A stretch of 64,000 bases of DNA, taken from contig NZ_LT671417.1 of the NCBI RefSeq assembly GCF_900128445.1, positions 2,119,201 to 2,183,200 on the forward strand, read 5' to 3'. The translations under genes were made by a program, and so were the position numbers. Under the pieces are notes generated by a model that did not search any database, was not told the DNA's origin, and worked only from the letters and a program-made list of their open reading frames with translations. Numbering within the stretch: position 1 is the first letter of the stretch; every line of letters begins with the position of its first letter. Positions 1,661-28,953 of the stretch are shown piece by piece. The stretch is from Thermophilibacter provencensis. GTDB lineage: Bacteria; Actinomycetota; Coriobacteriia; Coriobacteriales; Atopobiaceae.

Positions 1661-3022
1661 TTACTCAGTCGTGACAGAGTCATCCGCGGACGGTCGTGTT
1701 TTTCCGGCGGACGGCACGCGCCCCACGTCCCGGGCGAGAAGGTCGGTGAGCTCGCGGCTGCTGTGCACCCCCAGAAGCTCGTAGCCCTGCGCTCGATAGG
1801 CGTTCACGGTGCCGCGCGCCACGTGCAGGGACTCGCAGATCTCCGGCGTGGTTCGACCGAGGGCAATCTCCGTGAGCACGTGGGCCTGGAGCTCCCCCGC
1901 CCCGCGGCCGCGAAGGTAGAGCGCGCAGCGTTCCTCGTCGAGTGACGTGGTCACGCGCTCGCGCGGCCAGAGGAGGTAGGGCGCGAGCGCCGCCACCGCA
2001 CAGGCGTTGCCGAGGACGCCAAGCGCATTGAGGCTGATAAACCCGCCGGGCACCTGAACCTCGAGCCCGTACCATCCGCCTCCGGCAAGCAGCCCAAAGA
2101 GGGCAAGCGCGAGCAGCACGAGGCAAAGCCGGGAGGTGGTCCAGCGCAGGCGCACCCGCATCCCGCGCAGGCGCGCGTAGACAAGGAGCGCGGCCCAGGG
2201 CACGGCCAGGAGGGCAGGAACGAGGATGAGCCCGAGCGCCTGGTCCCACGTGCTGCCGCTCGTCAGCGTCACACGCGAGAGCAGGCGCAGGGAGAGGCCG
2301 ACGCAGAGCGCCATCGCCATGAGCGCGGGCGCGCCGGGCGAGGTCACGTCAAAGGCCGCGGGCACGGCGCCCGCGCCCCGCACGACCGGTCGCAGCTCGT
2401 CGAGCGAGGACACGCCGAGCTTCTCGCACGCGCGCGAGCGATACGTCATGACGGTGGACGCGCTCAGCCCCAGCGCGGCGGCCACCTGCGCGACGGAGCT
2501 TCCCGTGGCGAGCGCCTCCGCAATCGCACGCTCGCGCTCGCTGAGCGCCTCGGCCCCGTCGAGCCCATCGAGCGGTGAGGTCGAGGTCGTGGAGGACGTC
2601 GCGGCGCGAAGCGACCACACGGGAAGCGCCGCGCCCCAGAGGGCCCACGACCCCCAGCGCAGGATGCGCTCGGCCCAGCCGAGGGCGCGCACGAGACCGC
2701 CCGCCCCCACGGGTAACCACAGGTAGTACGCCGCCGCAACCAACGCGTAGGCGAGAAGAACCGCAAGCCCGGCGCCCGTCAGAGCGCGTCGCCGGCACTC
2801 GAGGCGATCACGGAGCGCCCACGCAACGGCCGCCGTCACCGCAGAGAGCGGAATCGCCGACGTCCAGAGAAAGTAGCTCAGCGGCAGCCCGTAGCCCTCC
2901 CAGCCGGAGGATAGCTGCACGTTGTACCTATACGCCTGATAGGCCGCCGGCAGCAGCAGGAGCGCCAGACCCCATGCCGCCCACAGCACCGTCCGCGCCA
3001 CCGTCCGTGACCGCTCGCCCAT
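1661..3022 (-). CDS. Membrane-anchored transcriptional regulator with two LuxR-type HTH domains
   Basis: 453 aa from the ATG at 3022, which has AAAGGGG 6-7 nt upstream; an in-frame upstream ATG at 3133 lacks a good ribosome site. There are hydrophobic helices at about 11-30, 50-70, 83-103 and 122-138, then a LuxR/GerE-type HTH at about 160-212 (LSERERAIAEAL...STVMTYRSRACEKLGV). A second membrane block at about 225-375 is followed by a second, C-terminal LuxR-type HTH (ALGRTTPEICESL...GTVNAYRAQGYELLGV). The unit [membrane block + HTH] is thus present twice. Coriobacteriia carry many membrane LuxR proteins with one C-terminal HTH. A paralogue with the same double layout is at 25766-27787. Signal and target genes are unknown. 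Confidence 0.85.
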   Translation of the reverse strand: MGERSRTVARTVLWAAWGLALLLLPAAYQAYRYNVQLSSGWEGYGLPLSYFLWTSAIPLSAVTAAVAWALRDRLECRRRALTGAGLAVLLAYALVAAAYYLWLPVGAGGLVRALGWAERILRWGSWALWGAALPVWSLRAATSSTTSTSPLDGLDGAEALSERERAIAEALATGSSVAQVAAALGLSASTVMTYRSRACEKLGVSSLDELRPVVRGAGAVPAAFDVTSPGAPALMAMALCVGLSLRLLSRVTLTSGSTWDQALGLILVPALLAVPWAALLVYARLRGMRVRLRWTTSRLCLVLLALALFGLLAGGGWYGLEVQVPGGFISLNALGVLGNACAVAALAPYLLWPRERVTTSLDEERCALYLRGRGAGELQAHVLTEIALGRTTPEICESLHVARGTVNAYRAQGYELLGVHSSRELTDLLARDVGRVPSAGKTRPSADDSVTTE

Positions 3023-3058
3023 GGGAACCCCTTTCCGTCCCTCTCGCCTGACTACCAA

Positions 3059-3088
3059 ATCGTATGCCCCAAGCAGGTCGGATGTCAT
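3059..3088 (-). promoter_or_regulatory. Candidate promoter of the LuxR-type gene
   Basis: On the minus strand, ATGACA (3083-3088) and TACGAT (3059-3064) are separated by 18 nt, a fair sigma-70-type match about 40 nt upstream of the start at 3022. By eye only. Confidence 0.35.
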
Positions 3089-3131
3089 GTCGTAAAGGTT
3101 ATGCGAGTGGCGTGACACGGCCTCGCCGGCC

Positions 3132-3166
3132 AAAAAAAAGCGCCCCGGGCGAGAAACCCGGGGCGC
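3132..3166 (-). terminator. Terminator of the infC-rpmI-rplT operon
   Basis: A perfect 10-bp stem GCGCCCCGGG / CCCGGGGCGC with a 7-nt loop is followed on the minus strand by eight T residues (3132-3139), 32 nt beyond the rplT stop. This is a strong intrinsic terminator. Confidence 0.9.
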
Positions 3167-5317: not shown

Positions 5318-5399
5318 GCCCGAGTGGCGGAATTGGCAGACGCGACGGTCTCAAAAACCGTTGGGGAAACTCGTGCGGGTTCGAGCCCCGCCTCGGGCA
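5318..5399 (+). tRNA. tRNA-Leu (CAA)
   Basis: The acceptor GCCCGAG (5318-5324) pairs with CTCGGGC (5392-5398), with discriminator A at 5399; CCA is not encoded (the DNA reads CCT). The D-arm is GTGGCGGAATTGGCAGAC. The anticodon stem-loop ACGGT-CTCAAAA-ACCGT has a CAA anticodon. There is a long class-II variable arm (TGGGGAAACTCGTG), and the T-arm contains GGTTCGAGCC. All features match a leucine tRNA reading UUG. Confidence 0.96.
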
Positions 5400-22720: not shown

Positions 22721-22770
22721 CGTCGCGACGCCCCCGCAGAGCGAAGTTGCGGGGGCGTCGCGACGTTTTT
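22721..22770 (+). terminator. Terminator of metG
   Basis: A perfect 17-bp stem (22721-22737 with 22749-22765) followed by five T residues. Confidence 0.88.
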
Positions 22771-22782
22771 CCCACCACTTCT

Positions 22783-22892
22783 GTCGCAATACCCCCGCAG
22801 CGCAGCTCTGCGGGGGCGTCGCGACGTCTGGCGCGGCCTGGGTGTCGCGAGTCCCCGGCACCCAGGCCAAGCGGAGGGCTCGCGACGTTTTT
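22783..22892 (+). repeat. Two further related hairpins after metG
   Basis: GTCGCAATACCCCCGCAG / CTGCGGGGGCGTCGCGAC (about 22783-22825) is a second, mismatched copy of the metG terminator palindrome. A third, GTCGCGAG (22844-22851) / CTCGCGAC (22879-22886) followed by GTTTTT, encloses a CCTGGGTG-CACCCAGG sub-hairpin. All three share GTCGCGAC ends and so look like a small local repeat family. Confidence 0.65.
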
Positions 22893-22964: not shown

Positions 22965-24455
22965 ATGCCCGTCGAGTTTCCGCCCGTGCACGTCCCGCGC
23001 CCGTACGCGCTTCCCGCCACCGCGCTCGCGGCGCGCGTCGAGGTCCCGACGGAGGACGGCGCCGCCATCGTTGCCTGGACGTACGCACCTGAGGGCGTGG
23101 TAGACGCGCCGGGCACGCCCTTCGGCATAGACCTCTCCGCGCCGCCCGTGCTGATGCTCCACGGCAACGGGGAGGAGCACGGCATCTTTGGCCCCGTGAT
23201 CGACGCCGTGTGCGCCTCCGGCCGCGCGGTCATCGCCCTGGACTCCCGCGCGCAGGGCCAGAGCACGCGCGGAACGGCCCCGCTCTCCTACGAGCTCATG
23301 GCCGCCGACGCTATCGAGGCGTGCGCCCGCCTCGGCGTGCCCGAGGTCCACGTGCTCGGCTTCTCCGACGGCGGCATCCTGGGGCTCCTCCTCGCACGGG
23401 ACTGGGGCGCGCACGTGCTCTCCGTGACCGCGCTCGGCGCCAACCTCACCCCGGCCGGGCTACCGAAGGAGGACACCGACTGGATGGCGTACGCGGCCGC
23501 GGAGAACCGCCGCTGGGCGGCCGAAGGCGAGGAGGGCGCGACCCTCGAGGACGGCACGCCCGTGCCCTCCCCCGCCGAGTCCGCGCAGATCGCGGAGCTC
23601 CTGCAGCTCATGGTGGAGAACCCTCAGATAGACGCGGCGTCGCTCGCCTCCGTGAGCTGCCCTGTCACCGTGATGGTCGGTGAGTTCGACGAGATCCTCC
23701 CCGAGGAGACCGACCGCATCGTGGCGGCCATCGCCGGCGCCCGCAAGGTCGTGGAGCCCGGGATCGACCACAACCTGCCCAAGATGGCTCCCGCCGCCGT
23801 CGCGCGCGAGCTTCTGGCCACGGTCCAGAAGAACGATGTGCGGCACCCCCGCCGCGCCATCGAGCTGCCCGATGGCCTCGCCATCTGCCGCATCCCCGTC
23901 TCGGGCCGCTGGGCCGAGAAGCTTGACGGACTCTACCGCCGCGTGGACGCCGAGCCCGGGACCTCAGGCTGGGTGCAGGACGTGTGGCCGCCCGTCGGGA
24001 TGGCGGCAGAGCTCCTGGCGACAGGCGCCTACTGGGGCGCCTTCGACGCCGCGGACGTGCGCGACGGCAGGCCGACGGACGACGCTGTCCTTCTCGGCGC
24101 GGTGGCCGTGGACCACGATGCGGACATGGGTGACGGCAGCGCCCCCGGGCACGGCTCCGGCCTCGGCGGCCCCTCATGGGCGAGGCGGGCCGAGAAGGAC
24201 GTGGCGTGCTGGCACCTCCTCGCGGCAGACCCCGCCGCCCGCGGCCGTCACGTGGCCGACGCCCTTCTCGCCGCCGGCGTGCGCGGCGCGCGGGAGATCG
24301 GCGCCCGCACGGTGCGCCTCAACACGAGCGTGGCCAACGTGCCCGCAAACGCGCTCTACGCCAGCCGCGGGTTCATGCGGCACCGCCCGCTCTGGCTCCC
24401 CTACCCGGGGCTGCCCCTGCCCGGATGGACCAGCCTCTGGGAGCTGGAGCTGTAG
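22965..24455 (+). CDS. Alpha/beta hydrolase fused to a GNAT acetyltransferase-like domain
   Basis: 496 aa from the ATG at 22965 (GAGAAGGAG upstream). Residues about 60-290 are an alpha/beta hydrolase: oxyanion region LMLHGNGEEHG, nucleophile elbow GFSDGG (Ser), acid Asp in GEFDEI, His in GIDHNLP. Residues about 300-496 resemble a GNAT N-acetyltransferase: the WARRAEKDVACWHLLAADPAARGRHVADALL acetyl-CoA loop region and TVRLNTSVANVPANALYASRGF. Substrates are unknown. A single frame spans both halves, so this is a genuine fusion. It is followed by the 122-bp repeat at 24499. Confidence 0.85.
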   Translation: MPVEFPPVHVPRPYALPATALAARVEVPTEDGAAIVAWTYAPEGVVDAPGTPFGIDLSAPPVLMLHGNGEEHGIFGPVIDAVCASGRAVIALDSRAQGQSTRGTAPLSYELMAADAIEACARLGVPEVHVLGFSDGGILGLLLARDWGAHVLSVTALGANLTPAGLPKEDTDWMAYAAAENRRWAAEGEEGATLEDGTPVPSPAESAQIAELLQLMVENPQIDAASLASVSCPVTVMVGEFDEILPEETDRIVAAIAGARKVVEPGIDHNLPKMAPAAVARELLATVQKNDVRHPRRAIELPDGLAICRIPVSGRWAEKLDGLYRRVDAEPGTSGWVQDVWPPVGMAAELLATGAYWGAFDAADVRDGRPTDDAVLLGAVAVDHDADMGDGSAPGHGSGLGGPSWARRAEKDVACWHLLAADPAARGRHVADALLAAGVRGAREIGARTVRLNTSVANVPANALYASRGFMRHRPLWLPYPGLPLPGWTSLWELEL

Positions 24456-24498
24456 CGCGTCCGGGGGGCCCCGCCTCTCGCGGCCCCGGCGCCTCCAT

Positions 24499-24620
24499 AT
24501 CAAATCTGGCCGCGGATTTCTGGCACTTTGGGACCCGTTTTGAGCCCGGAAAGTGCCGGAAATCCGCGGCCAGATTTGATATTCGCTCCCCAGCGGGAGC
24601 GCGTGGCGAGAAGGACGCGC
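24499..24620. repeat. Left copy of a 122-bp direct repeat flanking a low-GC island
   Basis: It contains a long palindrome (24497-24582, arms about 33 bp, starting ATCAAATCTGGCCGCGG) followed by CTCCCCAGCGGGAGCGCGTGGCGAGAAGGACGCGC in two parts. It is nearly identical over its full length to 28832-28953 in the same orientation (a handful of mismatches). As a hairpin between two convergent genes it can also terminate transcription. Confidence 0.85.
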
Positions 24621-24627
24621 AGCGCGC

Positions 24628-25191
24628 CTATGAGTTCACCAGCGTCTCCCACGCCAGATCAAACGCTGACTGACCCCGCACGAGCATGTCGTGACCCCAG
24701 TCAACGTTGCGCCAACGATCGCCGCTCTTAAGTTCGATCCACATGCCATCTCGATAGGAAGGCATCTCGAGGGAGTCGGTAAGGTACGCTTCGCGTAGGT
24801 CGACCGCGCCGTCATCGCCATCCCATTCAAAGATGACGACCCACCATGTGTCGCCGTCCTTCTCACCCACCTCGACCGACGCTGCACGGTCAAAGTAGCC
24901 GAACATCGTCGTCAGCTCTTCCGATTTCGACGCATCGAAGAGGTCGCACGTCATCGTCTCCATGATGCTCTCGTCGGCCTCTATCGGCTGCTCGTGCTCT
25001 TCGTCATCTTTCGGCACTTCAGCCTCGTCGGATACTGTCGGCTCCTCTGAGCTCACGTTGTCTTCAGCAATTGGCTCGTTTGCGCTGTCGTCCGTGGGCT
25101 GCGTTCCTGCCCCGCCGGAAGCGCAGCCCGCCAGCGCAAGGGACACGGCAAAGATGCCGCAGACAATACTCAGTTTCAAACGCATGGTCAT
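24628..25191 (-). CDS. Secreted lipoprotein of unknown function
   Basis: 187 aa. A short basic start (MTMRLKLS), hydrophobic segment and lipobox LALAGC mark a lipoprotein signal peptide. An acidic, disordered linker (about residues 30-75, rich in Asp, Glu, Pro and Ser) is followed by a compact domain with several Trp (WWVVIFEWDGDDGAVDLREAYL; WRNVDWGHD). No known domain was recognised. It lies 19 bp after the Tat-signal protein at 25210 in the same direction, so the two are probably one transcript. Codon use and GC are lower than in surrounding genes. Confidence 0.75.
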   Translation of the reverse strand: MTMRLKLSIVCGIFAVSLALAGCASGGAGTQPTDDSANEPIAEDNVSSEEPTVSDEAEVPKDDEEHEQPIEADESIMETMTCDLFDASKSEELTTMFGYFDRAASVEVGEKDGDTWWVVIFEWDGDDGAVDLREAYLTDSLEMPSYRDGMWIELKSGDRWRNVDWGHDMLVRGQSAFDLAWETLVNS

Positions 25192-25209
25192 TGCTCTTCG
25201 CCTTCCCAC

Positions 25210-25677
25210 TTACCAGCTAAACATCGCAACATTAGTGCAGACAATCATTTTTCCCGAGGTACTCGTAAACCTGAAGCTATAGCTGCCCGGCCCTACACCA
25301 GTCCATTCCGCTCGCACAAAGCCACTGGCATTAAGCGTCGCAGAACCCCTAGATCGCGAGCCTTGATAGAGTGTCACGACAAAAGAGACTCCCGAGGCAG
25401 AAGACACTGTTGCGTTGAGTTCAATACCTATATTATTTCCATCAAAATAGTAGTTACCTGTCTCAAAGATGCTTTCAAACTGAAAGGAAGATGCATACCA
25501 AGATCTTTCCGCAGAAATCTCGGATGACATCTCATATGAAACTGTTGGAACGACCTCTTCCATTGCCTGTGCAAGCGCCCTCTGGGGATGTGCAAGAACT
25601 CCAAGCGCCGTCAGCCCGATTGACGCCAAAAAGCTCCGTCGAGACAGTGCAGCGCCCATTGTCAACCTCACTCCCAT
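25210..25677 (-). CDS. Tat-signal secreted protein, unknown function
   Basis: 155 aa from the ATG at 25677; an ATG at 25659 with GAGG seven bases upstream is an equally good start. The signal peptide contains the twin-arginine motif SRRSFLASIG followed by a hydrophobic run ending near ALAQA. The mature part is beta-rich, with Ser/Gly/Thr/aromatic alternation (FVVTLYQGSRSRGSATLNASG; GSYSFRFTSTSGK), like a small jelly-roll or Ig-like domain. No Cys pairs or catalytic motif. Similar in size and export route to the protein at 28104, and on either side of the island's regulator. Confidence 0.7.
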   Translation of the reverse strand: MGVRLTMGAALSRRSFLASIGLTALGVLAHPQRALAQAMEEVVPTVSYEMSSEISAERSWYASSFQFESIFETGNYYFDGNNIGIELNATVSSASGVSFVVTLYQGSRSRGSATLNASGFVRAEWTGVGPGSYSFRFTSTSGKMIVCTNVAMFSW

Positions 25678-25765
25678 TGCCAGACCTTCATTTATGGGGA
25701 CATTAGGATAGGACACGCACCCCGTCTGTCATTTCTAGCGTTGCATCCATGCAGCAAGGTGCCAT

Positions 25766-27787
25766 TTATCTCCATTTCTTCAAATCGGAAAGGGTGTCGA
25801 GACCCAAAACTTTACACGCGCGCGATCGATAAGCTCTTACTGTACCAGGGGCCAAATAGAGCGTGGAAGCAATTTCATCACTTGTCTTGCCCTCCAAAGT
25901 CAGCACAACAACTTTGGCCTGCAGCTCGCTCAACCCTTTGGACAGAAGAAAGGCTTCCTGGACATGGCCGTCACAAATCCTGCCCTCATCTCCATCCTTA
26001 TAATGAAAAACTCGAACTCCCACCAACACCAATAGAACAGCTATAAATATCCGGGGAGTCAGCCAACATAGCTCCGTGAAGCGTTCCGTAAGTAATACAT
26101 CCAGTGAGTACACACTCCTCTCAAGTGTAAAAAGATGTAATCCCACCCCAACAAGCGCAACATGATAAGGACGCCTCAAGAACAGCTCATCTACCCCCTT
26201 TAGAAAAAGCCTCGGCACCGACTTCAAGCCTCCGAGATCCCGACAAGAGCCACCGCAAAACGCACCGAGCGCAACAATCGCGCATATCATTCCCAGCATG
26301 GCCCAGCCACGCCACACCATCCAATCGAAAAGCAAGATAGGAATCTCGAACCCGGAAAAGGGCCAGAGCCATGCCATGGACACCACCCAGCCAGCCGCCA
26401 AGAAGCCCAATGCCGTAAAAACCACTCGCAGCATCTCGTCCTTATCGCGTGGCGTGCCGTCTGTAGCATCGAAACACAATCCCTCCCGCTGAACCCACGT
26501 CCAACGAGCAATGCCGCCCACCAAGAATATACTGCCCACAAGATAGGGGGCAATCTCTCCTACCTCCATTCCGTAAGGCGGAAAACTGAGCGACACATAA
26601 TTCGGCGGTATATATGCCAGCAGAACAATTATGATGAGGTAGGCTACGATGCGAGCCCGCTTCGACAGACATATCTCCTGCCCATCAACCTCAGGAGACG
26701 CCACCTCGTCATCAACTGGTTTTTTGTTGCAACAGGACGCCCGCGCCACCAGTTCGATGAGCTCTCTCTTCTTTGATACGCCGAGCTTTCCGTATGCACG
26801 GTGACGATACGTCCCCACCGTAGATGCCGACAAATCATGTTTCTCGGCAATCTGCTGCAATGTCAGGCCATTAAGTGTATCTTCAACCACCTCTTGCTCA
26901 CGGCTGGTAAGGCGATCTGCGCCTGAAAAACCCGTTAACGCAATCCGCGCGCGCTCTCGATTTAAGCTATGTCCTCTTGTGCCCGTAGCGGAGCGTGGCA
27001 GGACTGCTGACGCACACCAGAGCAGCGCGCATCCTACTCCAGTCAAAACTAAATACCCCCCTACAAGTAGAAATTCGACAGGAGGGAAGACCCCGGAAAA
27101 CGTCACGAGGAAGGGGTTGGCCACCTCTGCCGCAGCTCTGAAGACAACAACACCCGTAAAAAGGGCGACCAAATCCATGAGACGAATACCGATCTTTGCC
27201 ATTCGGGCACACGTTGCACAAAGCAAAATCCCAGATGCCAAGCACATCAGAACTCCCCAAGAATCGGGTGCGTATGCGGAGAACAGGTCTGGGACAGAAA
27301 TAGCAATTCCAGTCAACATAGCTACGCAAGGCCAGAGTGCGGCTCCCAAAAATAATGCTGGAATGCGAACGGCGGGAATATTCTCCCTGACTGGGTTTTT
27401 CCACAACGTAACCAAAGCCCATCCCGTAAGAGCAAACGACTCGCTCGGCGTACGAAGCATCCCCCTGAAATTGAAGCATGTCACGCGCATCTGCCCAGGG
27501 AGCTGCATGCCAAAATGGAGGTAGACGAAATCGGCCAAAATCAGCGCTGCCCACGCAAGGGTCGCCGCTACGCCAAGCGCAACCGCCAAGCGCCGAGGCC
27601 ATGCTTTCTGAGAAAGGGAGTAATGGCCTTCGCCAGTGGCAGCAACCAGTAAGAGCGCCACCAGAACCAGACAGACTGAAGTCACGTTCGAGGGCCCCGG
27701 AATAACGGGACCGAACCAACTTGTCTCGAAGAACCCGGGCATGGCACCTAAAATAAACGTCCAAATCATCCAAAGCAAGTCGCCCAT
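25766..27787 (-). CDS. Large membrane-anchored regulator with two LuxR-type HTH domains
   Basis: 673 aa from the ATG at 27787 (GGGAGAGCC upstream). About eight hydrophobic helices occupy residues 1-260. A LuxR/GerE HTH lies at about 290-345 (LTSREQEVVEDTL...STVGTYRHRAYGKLGV). Further membrane helices lie at about 370-600, and a second HTH at about 612-668 (LSELQAKVVVLTLEGKTSDEIAST...GTVRAYRSRACKVLGL). It has the same doubled [membrane + HTH] plan as 1661-3022, with little sequence identity outside the HTHs. Its GC content is clearly lower than the rest of the window. It probably controls the flanking Tat-secreted proteins and lipoprotein; this is inferred from proximity only. Confidence 0.85.
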   Translation of the reverse strand: MGDLLWMIWTFILGAMPGFFETSWFGPVIPGPSNVTSVCLVLVALLLVAATGEGHYSLSQKAWPRRLAVALGVAATLAWAALILADFVYLHFGMQLPGQMRVTCFNFRGMLRTPSESFALTGWALVTLWKNPVRENIPAVRIPALFLGAALWPCVAMLTGIAISVPDLFSAYAPDSWGVLMCLASGILLCATCARMAKIGIRLMDLVALFTGVVVFRAAAEVANPFLVTFSGVFPPVEFLLVGGYLVLTGVGCALLWCASAVLPRSATGTRGHSLNRERARIALTGFSGADRLTSREQEVVEDTLNGLTLQQIAEKHDLSASTVGTYRHRAYGKLGVSKKRELIELVARASCCNKKPVDDEVASPEVDGQEICLSKRARIVAYLIIIVLLAYIPPNYVSLSFPPYGMEVGEIAPYLVGSIFLVGGIARWTWVQREGLCFDATDGTPRDKDEMLRVVFTALGFLAAGWVVSMAWLWPFSGFEIPILLFDWMVWRGWAMLGMICAIVALGAFCGGSCRDLGGLKSVPRLFLKGVDELFLRRPYHVALVGVGLHLFTLERSVYSLDVLLTERFTELCWLTPRIFIAVLLVLVGVRVFHYKDGDEGRICDGHVQEAFLLSKGLSELQAKVVVLTLEGKTSDEIASTLYLAPGTVRAYRSRACKVLGLDTLSDLKKWR

Positions 27788-27998
27788 GGCTCTCCCATCC
27801 TCCAGCAGAGCATCAATTAGCGAAAAGATATATCATGAGTTCATGGTAAGGGGCATCTCCAAGTTATTTATCCGTTCTTTTTTGATAGCTTCATCCAAGA
27901 GTCACGCCTACCAAATCATACAAAGTTGACTCCGCACATTAGCTTCACGCACCCCTTGCCTAGTTGAAATCCATGGCTACGTTACTAAATCATTTGCA

Positions 27999-28028
27999 GA
28001 GGAGCCTGCGCGACTGAACAGGCTCCTC
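27999..28028. terminator. Bidirectional hairpin between island genes
   Basis: A perfect 10-bp stem GAGGAGCCTG / CAGGCTCCTC, 75 bp past the stop of the protein at 28104. There is no strong T-run. The rest of 27788-28103 shows no gene; it is AT-rich and may hold the promoter of the regulator at 25766. Confidence 0.55.
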
Positions 28029-28103
28029 CGCAAGTTTCATCTCTATCAAAGCGCACCATAGAAAGGTCTAGTTATGGGTCATTCCGATGAGCTCTTTCAA
28101 GGC

Positions 28104-28607
28104 TTACTCTGTGCGAGAAATGCTCTCAGCGGGAATTGTCACCGTCCTATAGGCGATGAGTTCCGGCCAATCAGTCCATCCTGAGTAGGTGACCCTTATG
28201 GCACTCGAAGGTATTCCGATGCAAATGGCGGCGGTCGACATCACGCTTCCGACTGTCAGATTATTTCCGCCCCCGTAGCGTGCCCCGTCAGTACTTCCGT
28301 ATGGCGTTGTAAGGCTTGCGCTTCCACCATAATCGTAATTGCTGCTCTTATATACAGTCGTTCTGACCCAAAGCCAGTAGGACCCATCATACAGCCCCCG
28401 TCGCAGTTCAGTCAGACAATGCGAACTTGATATAGACGACAAGGTCCGAGACCCCGCCATGGAGACAGAGTGAGGGTCGATGGACCTCCCCGGTGTCGCC
28501 GCGTACTGCTCATCAGCCAACGCAACGGAAGGGGTTGATATGAGAAGCATTCCCGCTCCCAGTGCCGCCCCTATGAAAGCCCTTCTTGTGATGCATTCGT
28601 TGCTCAT
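28104..28607 (-). CDS. Tat-signal secreted protein, unknown function
   Basis: 167 aa from the ATG at 28607 (AAAGGAAG upstream). The twin-arginine signal is ITRRAFIGAALGAGMLL, with a likely signal-peptidase site after SVALA. The mature part has a single Cys pair candidate (SSHCLTELRRGLY; STAAICIGI), aromatic-rich strands and a GGSASLTTPYGSTDGARYGGG turn region. It looks like a small beta-rich secreted domain, but no family was recognised. It lies upstream of the double-HTH regulator in the same direction. Confidence 0.7.
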   Translation of the reverse strand: MSNECITRRAFIGAALGAGMLLISTPSVALADEQYAATPGRSIDPHSVSMAGSRTLSSISSSHCLTELRRGLYDGSYWLWVRTTVYKSSNYDYGGSASLTTPYGSTDGARYGGGNNLTVGSVMSTAAICIGIPSSAIRVTYSGWTDWPELIAYRTVTIPAESISRTE

Positions 28608-28831
28608 GTCATACTTCCTTTCATCAATCACCTTGCGATCGGGTTCAAATACCTCCTTTCACTTTCATGTAAGAGACTGAATATCGCTTAAAGCTCATGC
28701 TATTCATCCTCATCCGTTAAGAAGCTTGTCAGTCACTCTTCTGCAGCAACAGTGTTGCAGCGTGTCGCGTTTTACAAAGGAACGTAATACCTCACACCTC
28801 TTCTTATAAGTTTCTTTGACATTCCCACAGC

Positions 28832-28953
28832 ATCAAATCTGGCCGCGGATTTCTGGCACTTTGGGGCCCGTTTTGAGCCCGGAAAGTGCCGGAAATCCGC
28901 GGCCAGATTTGATATCCCCTCCCCAGCGGGAGCGCGTGGCGAGAAGGACGCGC
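28832..28953. repeat. Right copy of the 122-bp direct repeat
   Basis: Same orientation as 24499-24620 and almost identical, ending exactly at the stop codon of the histidine kinase (28954). The two copies bound the 4.2-kb lower-GC island. 28608-28831 otherwise holds no gene. Confidence 0.85.

Follow-up and report, generated by a model that had tools for sequence, protein, structure and literature searches.

Recombination-mediated presence/absence loci of bacterial genomes have conserved flanks, a variable content, and a direct repeat at the empty site. REP elements are dispersed hairpins associated with Y1 (RAYT) transposases, and lantibiotic and bacteriocin operons combine a LanFEG-type ABC transporter with the immunity lipoprotein LanI. 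As for regulators, PMC9734109 describes LuxR regulators of Coriobacteriia with 10 to 12 transmembrane (TM) segments, including DadR, HcdR, and CadR, and reports that the 12-TM LuxR membrane proteins of E. lenta switch on adjacent genes on substrate.

The low-GC block described here is a cassette of the presence/absence type, and it lies at a convergent, variable junction of an Olsenella-like (Atopobiaceae) genome. It shares with recombination-mediated presence/absence loci the conserved flanks, the variable content, and the direct repeat left at the empty site, and differs from them in its repeat, which is a dispersed hairpin joined to the resident flank. We give about even chances to the explanation as a whole, namely, that an operon for secreted and possibly antagonistic proteins, switched by a ligand, was gained recently by homologous recombination.

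Organization and composition of the cassette

The original prediction placed four genes of lower GC between near-identical direct repeats of 122 bp, and we recovered this layout at exactly those coordinates, with four minus-strand open reading frames between the copies. Positions are those of the window, i.e., the whole stretch of 64,000 nucleotides that was analysed.

22965..24455, plus strand: alpha/beta hydrolase fused to a GNAT acetyltransferase, resident flank (profile match)
24499..24620, no strand: left copy of the 122-bp unit, with a hairpin at about 24497-24582 and a 38-bp tail at 24583-24620; three differences from the right copy
24628..25209, minus strand: lipoprotein gene, 193 aa from GTG, lipobox LAGC by eye
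25210..25716, minus strand: Tat1, a secreted protein with a jelly-roll fold (168 aa counted from GTG; probable start near 25659)
25766..27787, minus strand: membrane regulator, 673 aa, with two LuxR HTH domains and 11 hydrophobic segments
28104..28631, minus strand: Tat2, another small secreted protein (175 aa counted from GTG; probable start near 28607)
28832..28953, no strand: right copy of the 122-bp unit, ending at the kinase stop codon
28954..30345, minus strand: sensor histidine kinase (HisKA, HATPase_c), resident flank (profile match)

The predicted difference in composition holds as well. GC is 0.532 between the flanking genes versus 0.724 in the flanks, and GC3 is 0.706 for the lipoprotein, 0.462 for Tat1, 0.553 for the regulator, and 0.568 for Tat2, versus an ordinary 0.928 to 0.953 in the four flanking genes measured. 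A promoter and terminator scan gave no clear excess.

Low GC and flanking direct repeats are also what an integrase-borne genomic island or a prophage remnant with the 122-bp copies as attachment sites would have, and the block at the same junction in a relative (G020) includes a 923-aa gene with endolysin-like PHROG matches. However, we regard this origin as very improbable: the profile search gave no recombinase match for any protein of the cassette; for Tat1, a search of 72,556 plasmid and 50,697 phage records gave no match, and of 20 pattern matches in viral contigs none was confirmed; and the only RNA that Rfam found in the window at the gathering threshold is a tRNA at 5318-5399. Repeats of 122 bp can also mislead short-read assembly, but a block misplaced at the repeat is barely credible in a genome of three contigs and 99.47% completeness whose module genes reappear at the same junction in other assemblies.

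Membrane regulator

The 673-aa protein is, as predicted, a double-HTH membrane regulator. PF00196 matches two stretches of it, and together with the hydrophobic segments of a Kyte-Doolittle scan the layout is six hydrophobic segments, a LuxR HTH (292-346, the best PF00196 stretch), five hydrophobic segments, and a second HTH at about 618-670, which PF08281 matches at 619-659. Compared by sequence with solved structures, it resembles HTH domains of response regulators only. The double-HTH layout is at home in this genome, as four of its seven open frames with LuxR HTH matches carry two. One of these four, a second double-HTH LuxR-type regulator of 490 aa, lies in the window at 1661-3133 (minus strand), where we noted no low-GC surroundings.

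Our regulator is a variant of the 10-12-TM LuxR class of PMC9734109. Both are membrane proteins of Coriobacteriia with a C-terminal LuxR-type HTH and a gene beside the putative targets, but the members described there have an uninterrupted N-terminal block of 10 to 12 TM segments and one HTH, whereas the 6 + 5 segments of the window protein are split by an internal HTH. Their neighbours code for catechol dehydroxylases or other enzymes, and those of the window regulator code for secreted proteins. In this way the membrane LuxR class of Coriobacteriia is extended from enzymes to secreted proteins and to a double-HTH architecture.

Secreted proteins and possible function

By eye, Tat1 and Tat2 carry the twin-arginine motifs SRRSFL and TRRAFI. 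The NCBIfam Tat model gives an E value of 0.76 for the first, below its cut-off, and no match for the second, so the predicted Tat signals stand on the motifs and not on the model; with this basis, export by the Tat pathway is likely. The predicted lengths of 155 to 167 aa correspond to downstream start codons, while the full open reading frames code for 168 and 175 aa. That the module is undescribed stands for Tat1, which matches no Pfam, NCBIfam, PADLOC, or PHROG family above the cut-off, and not for the regulator, whose class is already in the literature (PMC9734109). Tat2 and the lipoprotein have no Pfam or NCBIfam match above the cut-off either, and so none of the three matches at that level a known bacteriocin or lantibiotic precursor or immunity family of these two collections.

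The structural model of Tat1 is a confident jelly roll, with a pLDDT of 89 to 98 per block from residue 61 on and a pTM of 0.61. By sequence, nothing among the solved structures came below an E value of 0.15, and we dropped the fold search as a guide to function, with many unrelated jelly rolls within about 1 Z unit of each other (best 10.5). The Tat2 model (pLDDT of 69, no match with an E value of 0.001 or less) was set aside.

From this arrangement, we can propose that the LuxR-type membrane protein responds to a ligand by switching on the adjacent genes, by which the cassette would place a lipoprotein and two small proteins rich in beta structure on the cell surface or outside it. The product would probably be envelope-acting or antagonistic, with the lipoprotein as a partner or an immunity factor. 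The relatives that carry ABC genes hint weakly at antagonism as the likeliest purpose of the operon. Small secreted proteins together with a lipoprotein are a feature shared with lantibiotic and bacteriocin operons, and the ATPases of two relatives (loci L106 and L112) have as their best NCBIfam model the lantibiotic-protection ATPase TIGR03740, although at 135 and 128 bits they are far below its cut-off of 309.75. The window cassette differs from such operons in that ABC genes are absent from it and no known precursor family is matched.

The 122-bp unit and a dispersed hairpin family

The two copies of the unit are identical at 119 of 122 bases. Each consists of an 84-nt hairpin (33-bp arms, 20-nt loop) followed by a 38-bp tail, which is the 3' flank of the resident kinase and in the right copy runs to the kinase stop codon. 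When the same genome was searched with the unit, these two were the only full copies; the other matches were a diverged hairpin (C3:2623822) and a 25-nt stretch of the tail, so the pair is not a chance occurrence. A search of 31 genomes of the genus scored at most 28 candidates per genome, so that the following counts are lower bounds: some part of the unit matches in at least 11 of the 31 genomes and the hairpin in at least five, with at least 13 places in G014 (one of them split by an IS), five in G012, four in G029, three in the window genome (G000), and one in G015. The stem is conserved across the family; among 28 pairs in an alignment of 13 copies, 3 have changed on both sides, and the covariation term is small (-0.45).

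These features bear on the suggestion that the repeats are the ends of a mobile element, which we do not uphold, as they consist of a dispersed hairpin plus 38 bp of kinase 3' flank. A composite transposition, with the hairpin as a mobile element of the REP or MITE kind and the genes carried as one unit between two of its copies, has in its favour a dispersed hairpin with a conserved stem and the presence of Y1-type transposase genes in 28 of the 31 genomes. Still, we find it quite improbable, as the repeat takes in the 38-bp kinase flank and not the hairpin alone, the hairpin occurs at none of the 17 Y1-transposase loci of G000, G014, G029, and G012, and we noticed by eye no target duplication around the copies. 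The likeness to REP elements thus lies in a dispersed multicopy hairpin with a conserved stem and a variable loop, in a genus where Y1 transposases exist; the differences are its size of about 84 nt, its absence from those 17 loci, and its inclusion in a 122-bp direct repeat around genes.

We also considered the hairpin as the terminal repeat of an IS and ruled it out, since the two half-hairpins found 1.5 kb apart in G014 are one hairpin split by an IS. This IS lies inside the hairpin loop (L102, 8280-9820), and its protein has rve and HTH_21 domains. Two other repeats of the window deserve a mention. The 9-mer GGCGAGAAG occurs 30 times in the whole window (17 plus, 13 minus; e.g., 17361/17366, 24605, and 28938) versus about 2.4 expected under a second-order model, often beside hairpins, and some copies may be coding. 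At 22721-22888, 3' of a methionyl-tRNA-synthetase-like gene, there are three 45-nt units at a 61-bp spacing, each an inverted repeat.

The kinase junction across relatives

The kinase was sought in the 31 genomes of the genus, the window genome included; 30 have an orthologue (G009 does not), and the 3' side could be read at 30 loci. The hydrolase-GNAT gene is at the junction in 29 of them, and in G023 the contig ends after 4.1 kb, before the hydrolase gene is reached. Twelve loci (G014, G029, G022, G008, G012, G003, G007, G028, G004, G019, G026, and G027) have a short gap of 18 to 394 bp between the two genes, while 17, with the window among them, hold 1.2 to 10 kb, which makes the junction a variable site. 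Other occupants, mostly with a GC near that of their own flanks, include a LuxR-type gene in G010 and, in several genomes, a gene pair that, judged by eye, looks like an ECF sigma factor with its partner.

The junction of G020 holds all four module genes (identities of 63% for Tat1, 52% for Tat2, 54% for the regulator, and 45% for the lipoprotein); GC is low in three, while the lipoprotein (0.65) comes closer to normal. G025 has three module genes plus ABC genes, and across G020 and G025 the module genes are for the most part of low GC. G002 and G018 have the lipoprotein alone, and G015 has a fragment of it. Besides the window, then, the complete set at this place is confined to G020 and is not a genus-wide feature of normal GC. 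The 122-bp repeat is absent from the modules of G020 and G025, and there are no comparable direct repeats around them, so the repeat is not needed for the presence of the module here, contrary to the idea of an insertion by means of the repeats. Similarly, G020 differs from G002 by a 6.3-kb Tat2-Tat1-regulator-lysozyme-like block without the hairpin, where G002 has 224 bp, so the repeat is not a general vehicle.

The module genes that G020 and G025 have at this place, and the lone lipoprotein in G002 and G018, speak for another history, in which an old resident module was lost in G014 and G029 when flanking hairpin units recombined and left one unit in each. We consider such a loss the chief alternative and a serious possibility, although its chances are well short of even.

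Recurrence of the module in the order

Among 395 genomes of the order, 14 have Tat1 relatives, at 16 places in total. Fourteen of these places have a LuxR-type gene immediately 5' of Tat1 on the same strand, so the proposed pairing of the regulator with a Tat protein does recur; of the other two, the LuxR-type gene is divergent in L113, and one Tat1 is at a contig edge. A scan of genome contigs with two short patterns, which is not a census, gave ten loci in Olsenella, Atopobiaceae, Coriobacteriaceae, and Collinsella ihumii. At many Tat1 loci, another small secreted protein, dissimilar to the first, comes next, and ABC-transporter genes are added at at least five (L105, L106, L107, L110, and L112; the ATPases of L105, L106, and L112 were tested by profile and the rest read by eye). 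Tat1 has a lower GC than its surroundings at all ten loci measured. Relatives of Tat2 are found less often, in 5 of 395 genomes at an E value of 0.001 or less, and the only one of full length is in G020.

A tree was built from 15 of the 16 Tat1 proteins, all but the one at a contig edge; several long branches make it unsure outside the clades reported here. The proteins of the kinase junction form one clade (97/97), as those of an old resident module would. Within it, window and G020 proteins group together and G025 is farther (99/97), and the regulator agrees (54% identity to the window in G020 versus 34% in G025), while the kinase is reversed (79% versus 83%). This order, contrary to that of the flanking proteins, fits lateral exchange and counts against loss. 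The window lipoprotein is nearest to that of G025, as expected for inheritance in place, which counts against a recent gain.

Lipoprotein relatives occur at five other junctions, and in L209, L211, and L214 (G014, G029, and G001), one adjoins, by eye, a double-HTH LuxR-type gene. The Tat1 tree also joins in one clade (98/93) the proteins beside a gene read by eye as thrS, a second junction for this kind of module, in L098 (G002) and L099 (G029).

Empty site and relative timing

An empty site with one repeat copy, looked for in a close relative as originally proposed, is present in G014, the nearest relative found, where the same junction has exactly one unit and none of the four genes. In the two nearest relatives (G014 and G029), the order is hydrolase-GNAT, hairpin, tail, and kinase, and since each of the three species has the tail next to the kinase, the added copy is the left one. 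The single unit of G014 shares its left edge with the window left copy, and at 122 of 122 bases it agrees with the right copy; the single unit of G029 is 78% alike. Either window copy differs from the G029 unit in 27 of 124 columns (22%) and the two from each other at only 3 of 122 bases (2.5%), so, barring gene conversion, the duplication looks younger than the G029 split. The clock argument is weakened, however, by the perfect match of the right copy to the G014 unit in spite of 13.8% divergence at kinase fourfold sites (18.1% for G029), by which the unit must be constrained, exchanged, or gene-converted. In a scan of 18.3 aligned kb, with a window length chosen after the data were seen, the minimum of G000-G014 divergence is directly beside the right copy (4 differences in 570 bp, rank 1 of 1,489 overlapping windows), which suggests a recent exchange there.

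We can therefore weigh gain against loss at this site. Loss requires two independent events, and the copies, far more alike than either is to the G029 unit, also speak against it; in addition, both copies have the 38-bp tail, which separate hairpin insertions explain only with gene conversion. Against a recent gain, no donor and no circular form were seen. We favour gain in this lineage over double loss, although not decisively. The block would have entered recently, through either single-crossover integration of DNA with one unit or an allelic exchange in which a relative was the partner, and it could be lost again if the two 122-bp copies recombined. Ordinary homologous recombination suffices as the mechanism. 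The locus offers a testable case in which gut Actinomycetota may exchange operons for surface proteins at one fixed position, with no mobile-element enzyme involved.

A second hairpin-bounded junction

Of the 30 genomes that have the peptidase, 20 were read at a second junction, to which we gave by eye the names S10 peptidase and RlmL. In G014 (L102, 7195-8262) and G012 (L010, 469-1500), a 355-aa gene lies there between two hairpins. The gene is absent from G029, which has one hairpin, and from G000, which has no full hairpin but just a match of 20 nt; G018, G021, and G005 have the gene but no hairpins (in G005 with internal stop codons), and gene and hairpins are both absent in ten other genomes, in a tally that leaves out G022, G009, and G002. 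The pattern partly parallels the kinase junction and fits an order of gene first and hairpins later, which, if followed by deletion, supports the loss of an old module too.

A wider and rather unlikely reading of both junctions is that long dispersed hairpins are portable homology islands in Atopobiaceae, with small hairpin-bounded cassettes swapped between species by ordinary recombination. The cassettes would carry a regulator with secreted proteins or a defence-like gene, and this system, again rather unlikely, would be integron-like without a dedicated recombinase. The 355-aa protein has a weak similarity to AbiEi (PADLOC, E value of 0.001) and no Pfam match, and paralogues of its gene are found in 29 of the 31 genomes of the genus.
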